From: Magnolia sinica
Taxonomy: Eukaryota > Streptophyta > Magnoliopsida > Magnoliales > Magnoliaceae
Length of the DNA: 64,000 nt
Assembly: GCF_029962835.1 (NCBI RefSeq)
Contig: NC_080589.1
Span: 22,930,586-22,994,585, forward strand
Reading direction: 5' to 3'
In this document: positions 13,241 through 26,011 of the stretch, piece by piece
How positions within the stretch are numbered: position 1 is the first letter of the stretch
Layout: every line of letters begins with the position of its first letter
Notes under the pieces: model-generated
What the model was told of the DNA's origin: nothing
Seen by the model: the letters and a program-made list of their open reading frames with translations, nothing else
Databases searched by the model: none
Position numbers and translations under genes: made by a program

Positions 13241-13934
13241 GTGTTAAGATATCTGGTTTTAAACAGTCCCTTGATATTGGTCCATTTTAATAATGTCCCA
13301 CATAGAGATTTTAACTGCTAATGCAGAATTTGGTGGAAGCAGCTTCCTATGCTTGTGATTTCTCTTTAACTGATCCTTGCCAACAAGAGTCACTCCTGTG
13401 GGAAATTTTTGCTAGGATATCTTACCTCAAGTTTTTTTTCCTACATTACAAGCATTTTGAAAACTTGAGCCCACTTTTATGGCCACCTGTTGATTTGTTT
13501 AGCCTAAGAATTAACCAAACTATTCATTTACATGGGCTTGATAAAACGGAATAATTTTATCCAATCTTTTTTACGTGTTAATCTGATTTTTAAACGATTC
13601 CCTATTGCAAGCTCTACTCAGCGTGAATATGCAACTTATTACCTGTAATAAAGTTACAAGTTATCCAAACACAAAAAGTAAGTTACCTGTAAGTAAGTTA
13701 CAACTTACATCCAAACAGGATTACCTGTAACTTACTTACACCTGTAAGTAAGTTACATGTAACTTTCTTACAACTTAAAAAAGTTACAGGCATCCAAACA
13801 GGCCCTTAAAAAAGGAAAAGTTCAAAGAGAAGGAATCGAACATAACATAACCTGGCTCTGGAAATAATCACATGTATCAAACCAAAGAATACCTAAAAAA
13901 GCAGAGAAGGACATTTCGATCCTATTTCACCGAC

Positions 13935-14406
13935 CTGAACAAGGTAATAGAAGATGCGAAGCCCTTCAGGATCTTTGCTGCTCTGGACGTCGACAAGAGA
14001 TCCGATCTTCGAAGTGGTGAAGGAGATGTGCTCGTTCCCCATCACGATCTCGAGCTCCTGCCGGCCCACCCGGTCCGGCTCGGGCCAGTTGTTATCGTCT
14101 TCCTTCATTATCTGAAAACCCAAAATAAAATGAATAAAACCCAAGAAAAACCCTAGAAAAACCCTAGGGCTAGGAGAAAGGGCAGACCTCGCTCTCGGCG
14201 ATGATTCTTCGGCATTCTTTGAGGACGGCAGGAGTGAGGAAGACTTCCTTGCGAATCATTGTATCGTTCTTGTAGTTGGAGTTGTTGGCGTATCGGAGCT
14301 TCCCGTCGGGCCGAAACTCGAACTCTAGGAATTCGTGCCCGAATTTACCCTTATGCCCTACGTAGTATCTCAGATAGAACTCTCCTTGATCTTCCGCTCC
14401 TGACAT
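13935..14406 (-). CDS. MAGO: Mago nashi homologue (exon junction complex core), exons 1-2
   Basis: Mago nashi pairs with Y14 in the exon junction complex, which is laid on spliced mRNA in the nucleus and affects export, localisation and decay. Exon 1 is 14,188-14,406: ATG, then [20 protein letters not shown] and a beta-sheet core with [19 protein letters not shown], ending ...RRIIAESE before donor GT. A 76-bp intron (14,112-14,187) ends in TTTTCAG. Exon 2 is 13,935-14,111: [32 protein letters not shown] and [13 protein letters not shown], then donor GTCGGT. This gives 132 of the usual ~150 codons in a clean frame with conserved phase. The remaining ~19 codons (a DLKCFVFSLI...-type tail) should be a third exon at lower coordinates. 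I could not find one; a TIR element starts 130 bp downstream. It is either a gene with a long TE-filled last intron or a 3'-truncated copy. Confidence 0.93.
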
Positions 14407-14465
14407 TTTCCTTCTTCTTCTGTTTTCCTGCCAGCTTCTCGTCTCTTCCCGTTTTGATTTTTCTC

Positions 14466-14579
14466 GTGGGGAGAGTGAGAGATGTGGGTAATACCCCGGA
14501 CGGGCGCGGATTAGATACTGACGTGGGGAGAGTCAGAGATGTGGGTAATACCACGGACGGGTGCAGATTAGATACTTAC
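14466..14579. repeat. 57-bp tandem duplication
   Basis: Positions 14,466-14,522 and 14,523-14,579 are near-identical direct copies ('gtggggagagtgagagatgt...ttagatactgac'), differing at only a few bases. The second copy also forms the outer end of the MITE to its right. The block begins 60 bp upstream of the mago nashi start codon, so it lies in the promoter or 5' UTR. Confidence 0.9.
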
Positions 14580-15115
14580 AAGGTCACTATCCAGATTGCT
14601 ACTGAAGTGACGTCACCAAGCTCTGTGGACCCTACCATGATGCATGTGTTTTATCCATACCGTTCATCCATTTGGAGAGATCGTTTTATAACACGAGAAA
14701 AATAATGAGATAGTTCTAAAATTCGAGTGGACCCCACCATATAAAAAAGTGGGGACAGTGAATCCACCATTCAAAACTTCTTAGGGGCTACAGAAGTTTC
14801 TGATCAAGCTTATATTTATTTTTTCACTTCATCTATGTCCATGTTAACTTATGCATAAGTTGGATCTAAAAACTACATCATGGTGGGCCCTATACATGTT
14901 TCAACGGTGGGTGTGACTGATCTCACAATTTTCTGTGGTGGGTCCACATCTATCTCATTCTTTTTCTCATGCCATAAAATGATTTCTACAAATGGTTGGA
15001 CGGTATGGATACAAAACATGCATTATGGTGAGGCCCACAAAGCTTGGTCACGTCACTTCAGTAGCGATTTGGCTACCGACCTGGTCAGTATCTAATACGC
15101 GCCCAACCCCGGAAC
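14523..15115. mobile_element. GGGCCCACC fold-back MITE, complete copy with long TIRs
   Basis: Near-palindromic. Left 'gattagatactta...ttgctactgaagtgacgtcac' (14,562-14,612) and right 'gtgacgtcac'-type mirror (15,050-15,110) match as inverted repeats over about 75 bp: GCTACTGAAGTGACGTCACC on the left and its mirror 'ggtcacgtcacttcagtagc' on the right. The core carries 'tgttttatccataccgttcatcc' at 14,648 and its inverted form 'tggttggacggtatggatac' at 14,992. No coding sequence. Such copies can fold into a hairpin. It sits in the upstream region of mago nashi. Confidence 0.75.
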
Positions 15116-18390: not shown

Positions 18391-18399
18391 AGAGAAAAT
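18391..18399 (+). repeat. 9-bp target site duplication, left (AGAGAAAAT)
   Basis: AGAGAAAAT immediately precedes the terminal GAGAAATTTGCGAC of the giant palindrome. The identical 9 bp follow the other end at 26,003-26,011. A 9-bp duplication is the hallmark of Mutator-like transposition. Confidence 0.85.
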
Positions 18400-19965
18400 G
18401 AGAAATTTGCGACTGTACGACCCATTTATGGCCCACTTAGGAAACTCCGCCCACCTCATTTTCCTTTGCGAGAATACGCCCGAACTGTACGGAAGGCTTG
18501 CCAAAGGTCGAAAATGCCACTGCTTGTTCCTTCGAGCGGATATGTGGCGCTCGAAGACCAGCGCTGACACTCCTCGAACTCCGAGTTGTACGAACGGTTC
18601 ACAATGTTCATCCATATTTCGAGATCATTTCAGAGTATTACCCAAAAAAAAAAAAATCATATCCAAAGATCAACTGGACCACACCACAAAGATCAACTGG
18701 ACCACACCACAAAGAGCAACGGGAAAATTGATTTTAACCGTTAAAAATTTTGTAGGGCCCACCATAACATTTATTTTCCATCCAATATATGCAAAATGTA
18801 ACAAAGACCTGAATGAAGAGGAAAAACAAATTTTGTAATGATCCAAAACTTCTGGGACCCCTAAAAAGGTTTCAATGGTAGACGTTCAATCTTCCACTGC
18901 CTTTTACAGTGTGGCCCACTTGATAGCTAAATCTGTCTTATTTTTCTTCCCAAGTGTTAGTACGAGTTCGCAAAATAGATGGACGGTTTGGATATAACAC
19001 ATACCTCATAAAAGGACCCACAAAGGCGGTGGGGATTACAACAGGGAAAAAAAAGAGCTAGTATTTTTGGCTACGGATTATAACCGTAGCGATAACCGCA
19101 GCCAATGCTTTTTCAATATGTCCTCTGCTATACATCGAAGGTCTTTCGATATATACTTCGATATATCGAATGTCTTTCGATTAGTCGGAAAAGGTCCAAA
19201 ACTGTCCAGCAACTTTGCATAAAAAATCTTACAATTTTCGATTAATCGAAGTGTATTCGATATGTATCGAAGATATAGCTACAGATTATAGCTGTAGCCA
19301 TAACTGTAGTCCGTAAAAGTCTTTGCAAATTTTTTTATTTTTTTATTTTTTATTTTTTAGTTTTTATTTTTTACATGGAGAACTTTATTCTACCTACAAT
19401 TTTCTCTAATACATATTTATATAAATATGTATATATAAGCATATAAAAAAAGATTTATTTCTTTTTTTCATTTATTTCTCTATTCATTCAACAAGAATAT
19501 CTTATAAACCAAAATTAGTAAATTGATGTACCCTATATAATTTTGGGGTAGGAGAAGATACTTTAGCCAACTAACCTAGTTATTTTCTAAGATTCCATCA
19601 GGTCGATGGTCGAAAATCCATTTCATTCACTTTGCGGTCAATTTCAATCAGTTCGTGGTCATTTCCATACATTTCACCGTCAATTCCCTCCACTTCACGG
19701 ACAATTCCATGCATTTCACGGTCATCCCAAACTATTTCGTGTTGATTCACGGTCGTTTCGAAGCATTTCGCGGTCAATTCCCTTCACTTCACGATCATTT
19801 GCATGCATTTCGCGCTCAAATCGCTTCAAACCATAATCATTCTCATGCACTTCATGGTCATCCCAAACAATTCCGTGTTGATTCACGGTCGTTTCGAGGC
19901 ATTTCGCGGTCAATTCCCTTCACTTCACGGTCAGTTGCATGCAATTGACCGCTGATCATGAATTG
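18400..19965 (+). repeat. Left arm of the giant palindrome
   Basis: Order from outside in: terminal repeat with 'gacccatttatggccca'; GC-rich 'gaatacgcccgaactgtacgg'; MITE remnant (18,590-19,040); 'ggctacggattataaccgtagc'; TCGATATATCGA motifs (19,140-19,270); an AT-rich segment; then about 340 bp of satellite in the C-rich orientation (19,606-19,945) that flips orientation at 'gttgcatgcaattgaccgctg' near 19,940. Compared with the right arm it lacks about 55 bp ('agagatatcagagttac...') near 18,600. Confidence 0.85.
18590..19040. mobile_element. GGGCCCACC MITE remnant inside the left arm
   Basis: 'gttcatccatatttcgagatcatttc', 'tgtagggcccaccataaca', 'cttctgggacccctaaaaagg' and 'gatggacggtttggatataacac' follow the family order. 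A 23-bp internal duplication ('aaagatcaactggaccacac') is present. A corresponding remnant occupies the right arm, so the MITE was already there when the arms became inverted copies, or it was later homogenised. Confidence 0.7.
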
Positions 19966-22012
19966 ATGCGATTTGAGCGCGAAATGCATGCAAATGACCG
20001 TAAAGTGAAGGGAATTGACCGCGAAATGCCTCGAAACGACTGTGAATCAATACGAAATTGTTTGGGACGACCGTGAAATGCATGGGAATGATCATGGTTT
20101 GAAGCGATTTGAGCGCGAAATGCATGCAACTGACCGTGAAGTGAAGGGAATTGACCGCGAAATGCCTCGAAATGACCGTGAATCAACACGGAATTGTTTG
20201 GGACGACCGTGAAATGCATGGGAATGATCATGGTTTGAAGTGATTTGACCGTAAAATGTATGCAAATGATCGTCAAGTGAAGGGAATTAACCGCGAAATG
20301 CCTCGAAACGACCGTGAATCAACACGGAATTGTTTGGGACAACCGTGAAATGCATGGGAATGATCATGGTTTGAAGCGAATTGATTGCGAAATGCATGCA
20401 AATGACCGTGAAGTGAAGCGAATTGACTGCGAAATGCCTCGAAACGACCGTGAATCAACACGGAATTGTTTGGGACGACCGTGAAGTGCATGGGAATGAT
20501 CATGGTTTGAAGCGATTTGACCGAGGGAATTGACCACGAAATGCCTCGAAACAACCGTGAATCAACACGGAATTGTTTGGGATGATAGGGAAATGCATGG
20601 GAATGATCATGGTTTGAAGCGAATTGACCGCGAAATGCATGCAATTGACCATGAAGTGAAGGGAATTAATCGCGAAATGCCTCGAAACGACCGTGAATCA
20701 ACACGGAATTGTTTGGAATGACCGCGAAATGCATGGGAATGATCATGGTTTGAAGCGAAATGACCGCGAAATGCATGTAAATGACCGTGGAGTGAAGCGA
20801 ATTGACCGCGAAATGCCTCGAAATGACCGTGAATCAACACGGAATTATTTCGGACGACCGTGAAGTGCATGGGAATGATCATGGTTTGAAGTGAATTGAC
20901 CGCGAAATGCATGCAACTGACCGTGAAGTGAGGCGAATTGACCGCGAAATGCCTCGAAACGACTGTGAATCAACACGGAATTGTTTGGGATGACAGTGAA
21001 ATGCATGGGAATGATCATGGTTTGAAGCGAATTGACCGCAAAATGCATGCAACTGACCGTGGAGTGAAGCGAATTGACCGCGAAATGCCTCGAAACAACC
21101 GTGAATCAACACGGAATTGTTTGGGATGACAGGGAAATGCATGGGAATGATCATGGTTTGAAGCGAATTGACCGCAAAATGCATGTAAATGACCGTGGAG
21201 TGAAGGGAATTGACCGCGAATTGCCTCGAAACAACCGTGAATCAACACGGATTTGTTTGGGACGACCGTGAAGTGCAAGGGAATGATCATGGTTTGAAGC
21301 GAATTGACCACAAAATGCATGCAAATGACCGTGCAGTGAAGGGAATTGACCGCGAAATGCCTCGAAACGACCGTGAATCAACACGGAATTGTTTGGAATG
21401 ACCGTGAAATGCATGGGAATGATCATGGTTTGAAGCGAATTGACCGCGAAATGCATGTAAATGACCGTGGAGTGAAGGGTTTTGACCGCAAAATGCCTCG
21501 AAACGACCGTGAATCAACACGGAATTGTTTGGGATGACCACGAAATGCATGGGAATGATCATGGTTTGAAGCGATTTGACCACGAAATGCATGCAAATGA
21601 CCGTGGAGTGAAGGGAATTGATCACGAAATGTCTCGAAACGACCGTGAATCAACACGGAATTGTTTGGGACGACCGTGAAGTGCATGGGAATGATCATGG
21701 TTTGAAGCGAATTGATCGTGAAATGCATACAAATGACCATGAAGTGAAGGGAATTGACTGCGAAATGCCTCGAAACGACCGTGAATCAACACGGAATTGT
21801 TTGGAATGACCGCGAAATGCATGGGAATGATCATGGTTTGAAGCGAATTGACCGCGAAATGCATGCAAATGACCGTGGAGTGAAGGGTATTGACCGCGAA
21901 ATGCCTCGAAACGACCGTGAATCAACACGGAATTGTTTGGGATGACTGTGAAATGCATGAGAATGATCATGGTTTGAAGCGATTTGACCGCAAAATGCAT
22001 GCAAATGACCAT
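19966..22012 (-). repeat. 136-bp satellite array, left half (about 15 units)
   Basis: Head-to-tail units repeat every 136 bp; for example 'gaatgatcatggtttgaagcg' recurs at 20,090, 20,222, 20,358 and onward. In the C-rich orientation each unit holds five copies of TTC(A/G)CGGTC, separated by short variable linkers, and the landmarks 'aaaccatgatcattcccatgc' and 'caattccgtgttgattcac'. Because 136 is not a multiple of three and stops are rare, open frames of 60-120 codons appear on both strands; these are not genes. Confidence 0.95.
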
Positions 22013-22671
22013 GCAACTTAAGAGACTAGAAGAAGCACACTATGAACACAACTTGAAAAACATGGAGTGTGTACCGACATGGATGTGTACTAACAAGCTA
22101 ACCTAAAAAAGGAAAACAAAAAAATATATAAAAAAATAAAAAAAAATACATTAGAAAAAAATAGAAAAATTACACTTCGATATATCGAATAGAACACGAT
22201 ATATCGAAACTCTTCGATATAATCGAAACCTAATCGATTAATGGTAGAGTAAGTTGTCGATTATATCGAAATCTAGTCGATATAATATTAGTAAGTCATC
22301 CTTACAACCGACCGATATATCGACTATTATTCGATTGATCGAAAATAGTCACACAATGTCCAGCGACAAAATACTTTTTAAATTGTATTATCGATATAAT
22401 CGAGTAGATGTCGATATATCGAGGTATTGATATATCGACTAGATTTCGATATATCAAAAATTGTCAGAAAATGTCCAGCGTCGAACTGCTTTTTTAGTGC
22501 AATTTTTTTATTTTTTTTCTAATGTGTTTTTTTTATTTATTATTATTTTTTTGTTTTACTTTTTTAGGTTAGCTTGTTAGTACACACCCATGTCGGTACA
22601 CACTCCATGTTTTCCAAGTTATGTTTATAATGTGCTTCTTCTAGTCTCTTAAGTTGTATGGTCATTTGCAT
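22013..22671. repeat. Central spacer (loop) of the palindrome
   Basis: The edges are inverted copies: 'gagactagaagaagcacac...ctaacaagctaacct' (22,022-22,105) and its mirror (22,565-22,655). Between them are A/T-rich runs, also mirrored, and a core (22,170-22,460) with about ten TCGATA/ATCGA motifs such as 'cgatatatcgaaactcttcg'. 'gtccagcg' occurs twice. No gene. Confidence 0.8.
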
Positions 22672-24411
22672 GTATTTTCATAACTCAAATCGCTCAAACC
22701 ATGATCATTCCCATGCATTTTATAGTCATCCAAACAACTGTTCATGTTTAGCAATTTTCTTTTCCTCTTTTCATGCATTTCGCGGTCAAATCGCTCAAAC
22801 CATGATCATTCCTATGCATTTCGTGGTCATCCAAAATCATCATCATCGCTTCGAGGCATTTCGTGGTCAATTCCCTTCACTTCACACGTCATTGCATGCA
22901 TTTCGCGGTCAAATTCGCTTCAAACTATGATCATTCCTATGCATTTCACACTCATCCCAAACAATTCCGTGTTGATTCACTCGCTTCGAGGCATTTCGTG
23001 GTCAATTCCTTCACTTCCTGGTCATTTACATGCATTTCGCATCAATTCACTTCAAACCATGATCATTCCCATGCATTTCGGTCATTCCAAACAATTCCGT
23101 GTTGATTCACGTCGTTTCGAGGCATTTCCGTCAATTCCCTTCACTCCAGGTCATTTGCATGCATTTCGCAAATCGCTTCAAACCATGATCATTCCTATGC
23201 ATTTCGCGTCATCCCAAACAATTCCGTGTTGATTCACGTCGTTTCGATACATTTCCGATCAATTCCCTTCACTTCACGGTCATTTGCATGCATTTCGCGG
23301 TCAATTCGCTTCAAACCATGATCATTCCCATGCACTTCACGGTCGTCCCAAACAATTCCGTGTTGATTCACGGTCGTTTCGAGGCATTTCGCGATCAATT
23401 CCCTTCACTCCACGGTCATTTGCATGCATTTCGCGGTCAAATCGCTTCAAACCATGATCATTCCCATGCATTTCGAGGTCATCCCAAACAATTCCGTGTT
23501 GATTCACAGTCATTTCGAGGCATTTCGCGGTCAATTCGCTTCATTCCATGGTCATTTACATGCATTTCACGATCAATTCGCTTCAAACCATGATCATTCC
23601 CATGCATTTCGTGGTCATTCCAAACATTTCCGTGTTGATTCACGGTCGTTTCGAGGCATTTCGTGGTCAATTCCCTTCACTCCATGGTCAGTTGCATGCT
23701 TTTCGCGGTCAATTTGCTTCAAACCATGATCATTCTCATGCATTTCGCGGTCATTCCAAACAATTCCGTGTTAATTCACGACCGTTTCGAGGCATTTCGC
23801 GGTCAATTCCCTTCACTCCACGGTCATTTGCATGCATTTCGCGGTCAAATCGCTTCAAACCATGATCATTCCTATGCATTTCGCGGTCATCCCAAACAAT
23901 TCCGTATTGATTCACGGTCGTTTCGAGGCATTTCGCGGTCAATTCCCTTCACTTCACGGTCATTTGCATGCATTTCGCGGTCAATTCGCTTCAAACCATG
24001 ATCATTCCCATGTACTTCACGGTCGTCCCAAACAATTCCGTGTTGATTCACGGTCGTTTCGAGGCATTTCGCGGTCAATTCCCTTCACTTGACGATCATT
24101 TGCATGCATTTTACGGTCAAATCACTTCAAACCATGATCATTCCCATGCATTTCACGGTCGTCCCAAACAATTCCGTGTTGATTCACGGTCATTTCGAGG
24201 CATTTCGCGGTCAATTCCCTTCACTTCACGGTCATTTGCATGCATTTCGCGCTCAAATCGCTTCAAACCATGATCATTCCCATGCATTTCGCGGTCGTCC
24301 CAAACAATTTCGTGTTGATTCACGGTCGTTTCGAGGCATTTCGCGGTCAATTCCCTTCACTTCACGGTCATTTGCATGCATTTCGCGCTCAAATCGCATC
24401 AATTCATGATC
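22672..24411 (+). repeat. 136-bp satellite array, right half (about 13 units)
   Basis: The same satellite as the left half in the opposite orientation. Units from about 23,280 to 24,400 are regular. Those from 22,672 to 23,275 are damaged by many deletions of one to a few bases, mostly at the CGGTC sites. The array ends at the orientation flip 'catgatcagcggtcagttgcatgc' (24,405-24,430). Confidence 0.95.
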
Positions 24412-26002
24412 AGCGGTCAGTTGCATGCAACTGACCGTGAAGTGAAGGGAATTGACCGCGAAATGCCTCGAAACGACCGTGAATCAACACGGAATTGTTT
24501 GGGATGACCGTGAAGTGCATGGGAATGATCATGGTTTGAAGCGATTTGAGCGCGAAATGCATGCAAATGATCGTGAAGTGAAGGGAATTGACCGCGAAAT
24601 GCCTCGAAACGACCGTGAATCAACACGAAATAGTTCAAGATGACCGTGAAATGCATGGAATTGTCCGTGAAGTGGAGGGAATTGACGGTGAAATGCATGG
24701 AAATGACCACGAACTGATTGAAATTGACCGCAAAGTGAATGAAATGGATTTTCGACCATCGACCTGATGGAATCTTAGAAAATAACTAGGTTAGTTGGCT
24801 AAAGTATCTTCTCCTACCCCAAAATCATATAGGGTACATCAAGTAACTAATTTTGGTTTATAAGATATTCTTGTTGAATGAATAGAGAAATAAATGAAAA
24901 AAAGAGAGAATTTTTTTTTATATGCTTATATATACATATTTATATAAATATGTATTAGAGAAAATTGTAGGTAGAATAAAGTTCTCCATGTAAAAAATAA
25001 AAAATAAAAAAATAAAAAAATTTGCATAGACTTTTACAGACTACAGTTATGGCTACAGCTATAATCTGTAGCTATATCTTCGATACATATCGAATACATT
25101 TCGATTAATCGAAAATTGTAAGATTTTTTATGCAAAGTTGTTGGACAGTTTTGGACCTTTTCCGATTAATCGAAATACATTCGATATATCGAAGTATATA
25201 TCGAAAGACCTTCGATGTATAGTAGAGGACATATTGAAAAAGCATTGGCTGCGGTTATCGCTACGGTTATAATCCGTAGCCAAAGATACCAGCTCTTTTT
25301 TTTCCTTGTTGTAATCCCCACCGCCTTTGTGGGTCCTTTTATGAGGTATGTGTTATATCTAAACCGTCCATCTATTTTGCGAACTCGTACTAACGCTTGG
25401 GAAGAAAAATAAGACAGATTTAGCTATCAAGTGGACTACACTGTAAAAGGCAGTGGAAGATTGAACGTCTACCATTGAAACCCTTTTAGGGGTCTTAGAA
25501 GTTTTGGATCATTACAAAATTTGTTTTTCCTCTTCATCCAGGTCTTTGTGACATTATGAATATATTGGATGGAAAATAAATGTTATGGTGGGCCCTACAA
25601 AATTTTTAACGGTTAAAATCAATTTTCCGTTGCTCTTTGTGGTGTGGTCCAATTGTTGCTCTTTGTGGTGTGGTCCAATTGATCTTTGGATAGGATTTTT
25701 TTTTTTTTGATAATGCTCCGAAATGATCTCGAACTAAGGATGAACGTTGTGGATATAATAAGTACGTAACTGTGGGGCCCATGTAACTCTGATATCTCTT
25801 GAACCGTTCGTACAACTCGGAGTTCGAGGAGTGTCAGCGCTTGTCTTCGAGCGCCACATGTCCACTTGAAGGAACAAGCAGGGGGCATTTTCGACCTTTG
25901 GCAAGCTTTCCGTACAGCTCGGGCGTATTCTCGCAAAGGAAAATGAGGTGGGCGTAATTTCCTAAATGGGCCATAAATGGGTCGTACAGTCGCAAATTTC
26001 TC
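24412..26002 (-). repeat. Right arm of the giant palindrome
   Basis: Inverted copy of the left arm: satellite block (24,430-24,760), AT-rich segment, TCGATA motifs (25,080-25,220), 'gctacggttataatccgtagcc', MITE remnant (25,320-25,800) and the GC-rich terminal part ending 'gtcgcaaatttctc'. Scattered substitutions and a few indels separate it from the left arm, so the arms are not freshly duplicated. Confidence 0.85.
25320..25800. mobile_element. GGGCCCACC MITE remnant inside the right arm
   Basis: Mirror of the remnant at 18,590-19,040. It keeps about 55 bp lost from the left copy, including 'gtggggcccatgtaactctg' near 25,772. Confidence 0.7.
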
Positions 26003-26011
26003 AGAGAAAAT
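26003..26011 (+). repeat. 9-bp target site duplication, right (AGAGAAAAT)
   Basis: Identical to 18,391-18,399 and directly adjoins the terminal '...GTCGCAAATTTCTC'. Confidence 0.85.

Follow-up and report, generated by a model that had tools for sequence, protein, structure and literature searches.

Why some transposons carry huge inverted ends that are themselves internally repetitive is an old question, familiar from the FB elements of Drosophila, and one locus in the genome of Magnolia sinica puts it for a plant. In the 64,000 nucleotides of contig NC_080589.1 analysed here (positions 22,930,586 to 22,994,585 of assembly GCF_029962835.1; hereafter the window), a 7,603-bp element at 18400-26002 is flanked by two exact copies of AGAGAAAAT and consists of mirror-image arms that run almost to its middle and are largely filled with a tandem repeat. 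What is this element, has it moved, and what might such arms do? We conclude, with a probability of about 0.9, that it belongs to a multicopy family of giant foldback transposons that are non-autonomous and of the Mutator-like element (MULE) type. Matching tips, long mirror arms and, mostly, satellite-like arrays recur at many sites in the genome, most of them with target duplications of 9-10 bp.

Structure of the element

The element starts with GAGAAATTTGCGACTGTACGACC and ends in its reverse complement, the two arms meeting their first mismatch at base 37, and both copies of the 9-bp duplication are exact, at 18391-18399 on the left and 26003-26011 on the right, just as a preliminary description made from the sequence alone had reported. 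From either end inwards the parts follow in the same order: the outer arm extends for about 1.2 kb and is succeeded by a short array (about 0.3 kb), after which the orientation switches, and then by a main array and the centre. The outer arms, which are the terminal inverted repeat (TIR) without its satellite, lie at 18400-19618 (plus strand) and 24747-26002 (minus strand, as delimited by arm-to-arm alignment), and are headed by a 14-bp tip, GAGAAATTTGCGAC, at 18400-18413 (plus) and its exact inverse at 25989-26002 (minus). Self-comparison and a module map place the short outer arrays at 19619-19949 (plus), in the opposite orientation to the main left array, and at 24422-24746 (minus). The main arrays, both of a 136-bp repeat, occupy 19953-22013 (minus strand, 2.06 kb, 15 anchors and 14 intervals) and 22660-24412 (plus strand, 1.75 kb, 13 anchors and 12 intervals), array orientation flipping about 330 bp inside each array's outer edge, near 19950 and 24417. 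Between them lies a centre of 644 bp (22014-22657), with inverted ends of about 165 bp each and a middle rich in TTCGATATATCGAA-like motifs.

Aligned with the reverse complement of its partner, the left outer arm shows 46 differences in 1,202 ungapped columns (96.2% identity) and a further 71 gap columns; half against half, the element has 94.6% identity in 3,462 ungapped columns and another 679 columns with gaps. The arms extend to the centre, whose own ends are inverted, and contain 53 perfect arm-to-arm runs of at least 21 bp, the longest being 129 bp. The score of the 1.2-kb arm alignment is 1988, against at most 9.5 for 50 control stretches of equal length taken from 26.1-63.6 kb of the window, and the near-complete 7.6-kb palindrome that had been proposed is thus borne out base for base. 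Foldback elements are defined by very long inverted repeats, themselves repetitive, that account for the bulk of the element, as is the case here. Counting both strands, the element holds the motif TTTCGCGG 35 times and the rest of the window not once, and the looser WTTSSCSS, which we take to be an E2F-like motif, reaches 5.5 per kb inside against 0.4 elsewhere in the window; both enrichments are possibly a mere by-product of the monomer sequence.

A mobile, multicopy family

The exact 14-bp tip was found 391 times in the window's own genome (1.84 Gb, 127 contigs), against once for its reversed control. Positions were listed for 100 of the 391, of which 98 fall on contigs C1-C4, and from these listed tips 18 plus/minus pairs no more than 10.3 kb apart were fetched, giving 19 elements with that of the window, whose tips are identical by selection; one of four longer tip pairs was read in part (loci L063 and L064). 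Throughout, the scored counts of genome matches to end, centre and domain queries are lower bounds. A 201-bp query from the end, for which 40 of 2,119 candidates were scored, gave 43 matches, comprising itself, 39 others with 96-97% identity and 3 partial matches, and the centre gave itself and 39 full-length or nearly full-length matches at 94-97% (40 scored of 804 candidates). The further copies that the preliminary description had anticipated thus exist, both as exact ends and as at least 39 other centres. Outer arm and array sequence are present in 16 of the 18 fetched elements (17 of 19 with the window), although in L015 and L021 the array sequence is short and without the 136-bp period, and at least 150 bp of the centre is present in 11 of the 18.

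Target duplications are exact and of 9 bp in nine of the 19 elements, exact and of 10 bp in two, of 9 bp with one mismatch in six, and missing from two. The duplications of 9-10 bp in 17 of 19 (six of them imperfect by one base) lie within the 8-10 bp by which MULEs are recognised, and the outer arms of about 1.2 kb with identical tips provide the long TIRs and conserved tip of that group, for which GAGAAATTTGC-like tips are typical. When the flanks of the window element were joined through a single copy of the duplication, the resulting 300-bp query matched another contig of the genome, at G000:C4:115656975-115657277, at 96% over bases 1-300 without a break, which identifies this locus as a likely element-free, paralogous site and answers the search for an empty site that had been suggested; the window itself contains none. 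A 548-bp block that is confined to one arm recurs in L017, L022 and L027, each of which has its own site and a duplication different from the others'.

The tips, the duplications, the uninterrupted joined flanks and the one-arm block together argue for a mobile, multicopy MULE-type foldback family, and not for an assembly artefact. That the palindrome is such an artefact, or a local inverted duplication formed without transposition, would be in keeping with the difficulty of assembling inverted structures that contain satellites, and the inner part of the right array (22.66-23.26 kb) has clustered small deletions that might pass for consensus errors. However, the arms differ at 3.8% of outer-arm columns, and the same anatomy stands at many sites with different duplications, besides the empty-site match, so that this alternative, which the preliminary description had itself raised, is largely refuted and we consider it extremely improbable. 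That description's proposal of a giant foldback MULE-type element that moves as a unit holds, given 9-10-bp duplications at different sites, the many copies and the unbroken flanks. A MULE transposase supplied in trans would cut the element at its tips and insert it there.

Some observations weigh against this reading of the family. Two of the 19 elements, L011 and L013, lack a target duplication; L010 and L020 have the family tips but no array of this sequence; and the C4 empty site is known at the level of an alignment. None of the elements searched yielded a transposase. The genome is rich in MULE domains (1,104 candidates, 150 of them scored), yet all 32 scored matches on C1-C4 are more than 15 kb away from the listed tips, a null result that says little because only 0.15 would be expected by chance.

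Two subfamilies and the decay of the arms

Of 38 outer arms considered, we kept the 30 that cover at least 75% of the reference, which removed all arms of L009, L010, L015 and L020, and these 30 split into two subfamilies. Subfamily A holds nine elements including that of the window (18 arms) and subfamily B holds L013, L018, L021, L025 and L026 (10 arms), with L014 in neither. The partner arms of an element in A are hardly more alike (0.960) than arms that are not partners (0.956), and the tree is nearly star-like, the exception being L012, whose own two arms pair (98.4%, support 0.971). The source of this young subfamily would therefore have been a nearly perfect palindrome, the arms of which decayed separately after each insertion. 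In B, a single clade with a support of 1.000 unites the a-arms of four elements with both arms of L013 and leaves the other b-arms outside, so that the arms had diverged before the elements spread.

Coding content and captured sequence

Five reading frames of the window copy were scanned without a Pfam match, its other frames of at least 120 amino acids are translations of the arrays, and no frame longer than 60 amino acids lies wholly inside its centre; nor did the Pfam scan of window frames, 14 outside the element and 5 inside, reveal a MULE transposase. That the element could move in trans, as had been suggested, is a fair inference from these frames. The 3.3-kb surroundings of 30 MULE-domain matches contain no tip at up to two mismatches. 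A 14.1-kb tip pair on C4 was considered as an autonomous element and rejected, since L063 and L064 hold array, centre and gene-related DNA instead. Beside the array, L063:5300-5960 is a very high-copy sequence (40 scored of 3,684 candidates) with four pairs of matches 8.5-9.1 kb apart, a spacing that makes it probably the long terminal repeat (LTR) of a retrotransposon.

The gene-related DNA, present in the centre of some copies, is related to the final portion of a protein predicted in Magnolia sinica that carries GRF and CCHC zinc fingers. It amounts to about 1.16 kb in L026 and L018 and to 237 bp in L014, L017 and L027, and there is none in the centre of the window copy. In L026 it forms an open frame of 388 amino acids, without a Pfam match, whose sole homolog at E ≤ 0.001 is the Magnolia sinica protein P0086 (7,622 candidates from a collection of 5.77 billion proteins). 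The fragment was probably captured by the element from the host gene, not the reverse, and such a host gene fragment between MULE ends, found in some copies, resembles the behaviour of Pack-MULEs. A piece of 142 amino acids, from L063, matches neither Pfam nor any entry of the protein collection, yet the genome holds at least 151 matches to it (653 candidates, of which 150 were scored). Among those listed on C1-C4, 22 of 39 lie within 15 kb of a listed tip, where 0.2 would be expected; of the matches that cover all or nearly all of the piece, only 3 of 17 do so (0.08 expected), and another carrier, or elements with decayed tips, must therefore exist. Matches to this piece also recur every 2.4-3.2 kb, in one orientation and in open frames, at C15:23260138-23266595 and C14:34852619-34860747 of the same genome (G000), in three and four copies, which are perhaps array and centre amplified in tandem.

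The 136-bp repeat and what the arrays may do

Each 136-bp monomer is built of five 21-bp units and one 31-bp unit, every unit opening with GACC or GATC. With 10.5 bp to a turn of DNA, units spaced by 21 bp present the motif on the same helical face. In the genome, 6,041 copies of a 17-base monomer core were counted, and none of its reversed control. The outermost whole monomers match across the arms at 99.3% and 96.3%, and the inner ones are not in mirror order, from which it would follow that the arrays were common to both arms at first and turned over separately later; slippage or unequal exchange would lengthen and shorten them in either arm independently, since pairing between the arms has been kept by the outermost monomers only. 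In the right array, the inner monomers (22660-23260) are shortened by small deletions to intervals of 133, 126, 132, 125 and 101 bp, and periods of 126-132 bp are seen in the arrays of L011, L016 and L019; these shortened monomers reflect either decay or consensus errors of the assembly. The 17.7-kb tip pair at C1:22228614-22246343, in which monomer matches of either orientation span more than 14 kb, is an even larger or a compound member.

The element L010 (G000:C1:126330918-126338801) has the same tip, a TIR of 124 bp (78%) and 21-bp arrays of an unrelated unit, and L015 carries both kinds of array. Kinship between the 21-bp units of the foldback elements and those of L010 was looked for and rejected, the similarity being at shuffle level (321 and 752 of 1000). 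Constant spacing with changing sequence is what co-evolving binding sites would be expected to show, though slippage could also give it.

One possibility is that the arrays are functionless, arising by slippage or template switching in a foldback structure, accumulating, and in some cases being freed as satellite, as proposed for the Tetris element (PMC4079207, in the part consulted), which offers a precedent for freed satellite. The array is continuous and the centre absent in L009, L012 and L021, and some arrays on C1 (for example 2989895-2993157) are far from any listed exact tip, both of which this explanation would accommodate. It fares less well with the 21-bp period, which is kept between unrelated units on the same tip and in a degenerate stretch beside a DUF1985 domain (see below) and so indicates a constraint on spacing, albeit one that slippage alone could mimic; we hold it to be rather doubtful. 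As for the origin of the monomer, its derivation from the outer arm or tip, which is the Tetris scenario, was rejected, similarity being within the range of shuffles (22 of 200 for the outer arm, 490 of 500 for the terminal 61 bp).

Alternatively, the tandem repeats could be extra binding sites for the transposase that strengthen synapsis of the ends, in the manner of the THAP domain and the Galileo TIRs. Galileo, which is foldback-like, is described in the available part of PMC3688188 as having two extra binding sites in a long, internally repetitive TIR, and the arrays here do lie inside the inverted arms and keep a 21-bp register. Yet the outer arm, where the first transposase site would be expected, is no more similar to the monomer than those same shuffles allow, L010 combines the same tip with an unrelated unit, and there is no transposase tied to the family, which leaves this explanation unlikely.

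A third idea comes from the VANDAL elements of Arabidopsis, whose DUF1985-containing VANC proteins attach to tandem repeats in non-coding DNA and erase methylation, the repeats diverging fast between related elements (PMC5735166 and PMC10398659, in the sections consulted). DUF1985 is common in the Magnolia genome (150 scored of 819 candidates, all above the cut-off). At a locus on C2, within 120284700-120300000, a tip heads a diverged outer arm (77%, L065), with a DUF1985 match 10 kb from the tip; a 136-bp array starts about 670 bp from that match, on its 5' side (L066), and about 11 kb from the tip. In the 322 bp just before the recognisable array, the lags of 21, 63 and 42 are the top three of 92, and the lag-21 value is reached by none of 2,000 block shuffles, compared with 796 of 2,000 for the first 290 bp of L066. 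This graded periodicity suggests that the array fades in, as expected of repeats grown in place and not of a breakpoint. Arrays beside DUF1985 suggest, without proving, that they are binding platforms.

On this basis the reading of the arrays that we prefer, tentatively and at less than even odds, is that their 21-bp units, two helical turns apart, would be landing sites for a DNA-binding protein encoded by an element, for which an anti-silencing protein akin to VANC, with its DUF1985, is the likeliest candidate. In a fuller version, which we offer with still more reserve, a VANC-type DUF1985 protein from a larger relative would bind the phased units and keep the non-autonomous foldback elements demethylated in trans, the arms serving as anti-silencing platforms. 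If so, the satellite was born in regulatory DNA beside an anti-silencing gene, was then carried into foldback elements, and has spread over a 1.8-Gb genome as a device of self-protection, with more than 6,000 exact copies of its core.

Methylation history

The ratio of observed to expected CpG averages 1.38 over the element (15 one-kb windows), against 0.53, with a maximum of 1.19, outside it (109 windows). In the window's pair of outer arms, transitions affect 6 of 86 CG and 18 of 298 CHH sites (odds ratio, OR, 1.17), and with the outer array included 9 of 189 and 29 of 484 (OR 0.78); two pairs of direct repeats in the same window, whose substitution spectrum served as the control, give CG ORs of 2.79 (p = 0.01) and 3.53 (p = 0.00008). 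Against their consensus, all 30 arms together show transitions at 156 of 2542 CG, 123 of 1759 CHG and 344 of 8998 CHH sites. Private transitions, defined as those present in at most two rows, number 40/1605 (CG), 26/1045 (CHG) and 97/5447 (CHH) in the 18 arms of subfamily A (CG OR 1.41, p = 0.08; CHG OR 1.41, p = 0.14), and 38/740, 27/553 and 67/2905 in the 10 arms of subfamily B (CG OR 2.29, p = 0.0001; CHG OR 2.17, p = 0.001). The clean interpretation of an unmethylated element, which the window arm pair had suggested, was weakened by these family counts and given up, the evidence being mixed. The substitutions show few traces of prolonged CG methylation in the young subfamily A and evident ones in the older subfamily B, a pattern that fits, without proving, elements that were active while weakly methylated and silenced afterwards.

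In maize, Mu killer is an inverted duplication of Mutator whose hairpin RNA silences the family, and the window element might likewise be a silencing locus that directs hairpin RNA and small RNAs against its own kind. A transcript of it would be an excellent Dicer substrate, the 53 perfect runs accounting for 2,221 of 3,274 matched bases, and the CG and CHG transition excess of the older subfamily is clear. Nevertheless, the structure is common to 16 of 18 fetched elements, and 40 centres were scored; a palindromic form shared by so many copies is the family's normal form and not one special derivative. Together with the high CpG ratio inside the element, the lack of a CG excess in the window arm pair and the merely weak one in subfamily A, this makes a Mu-killer-like role improbable.

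The preferred, anti-silencing reading of the arrays has its own difficulties, of which the lean of both subfamilies towards CG deamination, clear in the older, is one. VANDALs, the setting of VANC, have degenerate TIRs, unlike these elements. On C1-C4 just one DUF1985 match of 34 has a listed tip within 15 kb, and with 0.18 expected by chance a single coincidence of this kind means little on its own. Finally, the tip, arm, DUF1985 match and array on C2 may form one element, of which the two ends of about 11 kb are what has been read. The family makes three ideas testable, transposase synapsis, anti-silencing and by-product, and offers material for the old question of repetitive inverted ends in its many copies, two subfamilies, varying presence of array and centre, and two unrelated 21-bp arrays on one tip, to which one candidate relative with an array beside an anti-silencing-type domain adds value.

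Surroundings in the window

About 3.9 kb from the foldback element, which lies on the gene's 5' side, is a mago nashi gene (13893-14532, minus strand) matched by two reading frames. Next to it, at 14559-15104, is a separate palindromic sequence, self-inverted at 72%, that resembles a miniature inverted-repeat transposable element (MITE). Self-comparison relates its part at 14621-14908 to an arm segment of the foldback element at 18737-19025 (plus strand, 69%) and to the mirrored counterpart at 25325-25613 (68%); formation of the palindrome may have duplicated an older MITE-like insertion. The direct-repeat pairs used as controls, of about 1.2 kb each and oppositely oriented, lie at 39885-41091/43178-44387 and 59563-60775/62470-63679, and enclose 42-bp tandem arrays and a Tf2-1-like SH3 domain; they are probably two non-autonomous LTR elements of one family.

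Comparison with known systems

Plants have foldback elements of their own, among them SoFT of Solanum. Others are FARE in Arabidopsis, Tnr8 in rice and RYS1 in rye, cited in the consulted parts of PMC3169594, PMC4079207 and PMC4486113, the last of which describes FARE1 as now placed among the MULEs. The Magnolia family was compared with Tetris, Tm1 and FARE in structure, from their descriptions, which for all the systems below were available in part. The earlier statement that MULEs with an inverted satellite in the stem were not known was too strong in view of Tetris (PMC4079207) and Tm1 (PMC3169594); a plant MULE with kilobase-scale inverted satellite arms did not appear in the titles and abstract openings searched, which is not proof of absence.

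Tetris of Drosophila virilis, assigned to Mutator by the size of its target duplications and by analogy with other foldback elements, has tandem repeats of about 220 bp in its TIRs (PMC4079207). Like the Magnolia family it is non-autonomous, its TIR consists of an outer flanking domain, tandem repeats and an inner domain around a non-coding middle, its duplications are of 8-10 bp, and its repeats also occur as longer satellite arrays. It differs in being from an animal, in TIRs of at most 1,735 bp, in a repeat that shares 37 bp with the outer TIR, and in three structurally complete copies reported; here the host is a plant, the window arms measure about 3.3-3.8 kb, the repeat has a 21/136-bp hierarchy and no similarity to the outer arm beyond shuffles, there are 391 exact tips, and some copies hold a gene fragment. 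Tm1 of root-knot nematodes, classed as Mutator/Foldback, resembles the family in its composite TIRs with a variable number of tandem repeats and in duplications of 8-10 bp, mostly 9 bp (PMC3169594). Its two TIRs are on average 93% alike within an element, one form codes for transposase and the others are non-coding; it differs in a unit of about 14 bp, in named elements of 1,080 and 2,593 bp, and in its Phantom/Mutator transposase, a Phantom-type enzyme of which no equivalent was found here. Foldback4 of Drosophila melanogaster is likewise a non-autonomous foldback element whose palindromic ends form most of its length, though its ten copies measure 627-2,266 bp and its ends more than 400 bp (PMC2955051).

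Among plant MULEs, the VANDALs share with the Magnolia family fast-diverging tandem repeats in non-coding DNA, and their VANC proteins contain the DUF1985 domain, a match to which adjoins an array in one relative here; they differ in degenerate TIRs and in encoding their own proteins, in contrast to the very long mirror arms here and the lack of such a gene in the copies searched (PMC5735166, PMC10398659). With arms that are 96% identical, the family is not filed as a VANDAL. The tandem-TIR MULEs of tomato and Arabidopsis also carry extra terminal copies and still amplify, some with gene fragments, but have one added TIR per end or a solo TIR and not a satellite array, and the part of PMC3310237 consulted does not describe them as palindromes to the centre. 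New in the present family are the 21/31-bp hierarchy of the 136-bp repeat, the GRF/CCHC-related fragment and the array beside DUF1985 in one diverged relative. The family also appears to be a plant example of foldback transposons spreading satellite DNA, as Tetris showed for Drosophila.

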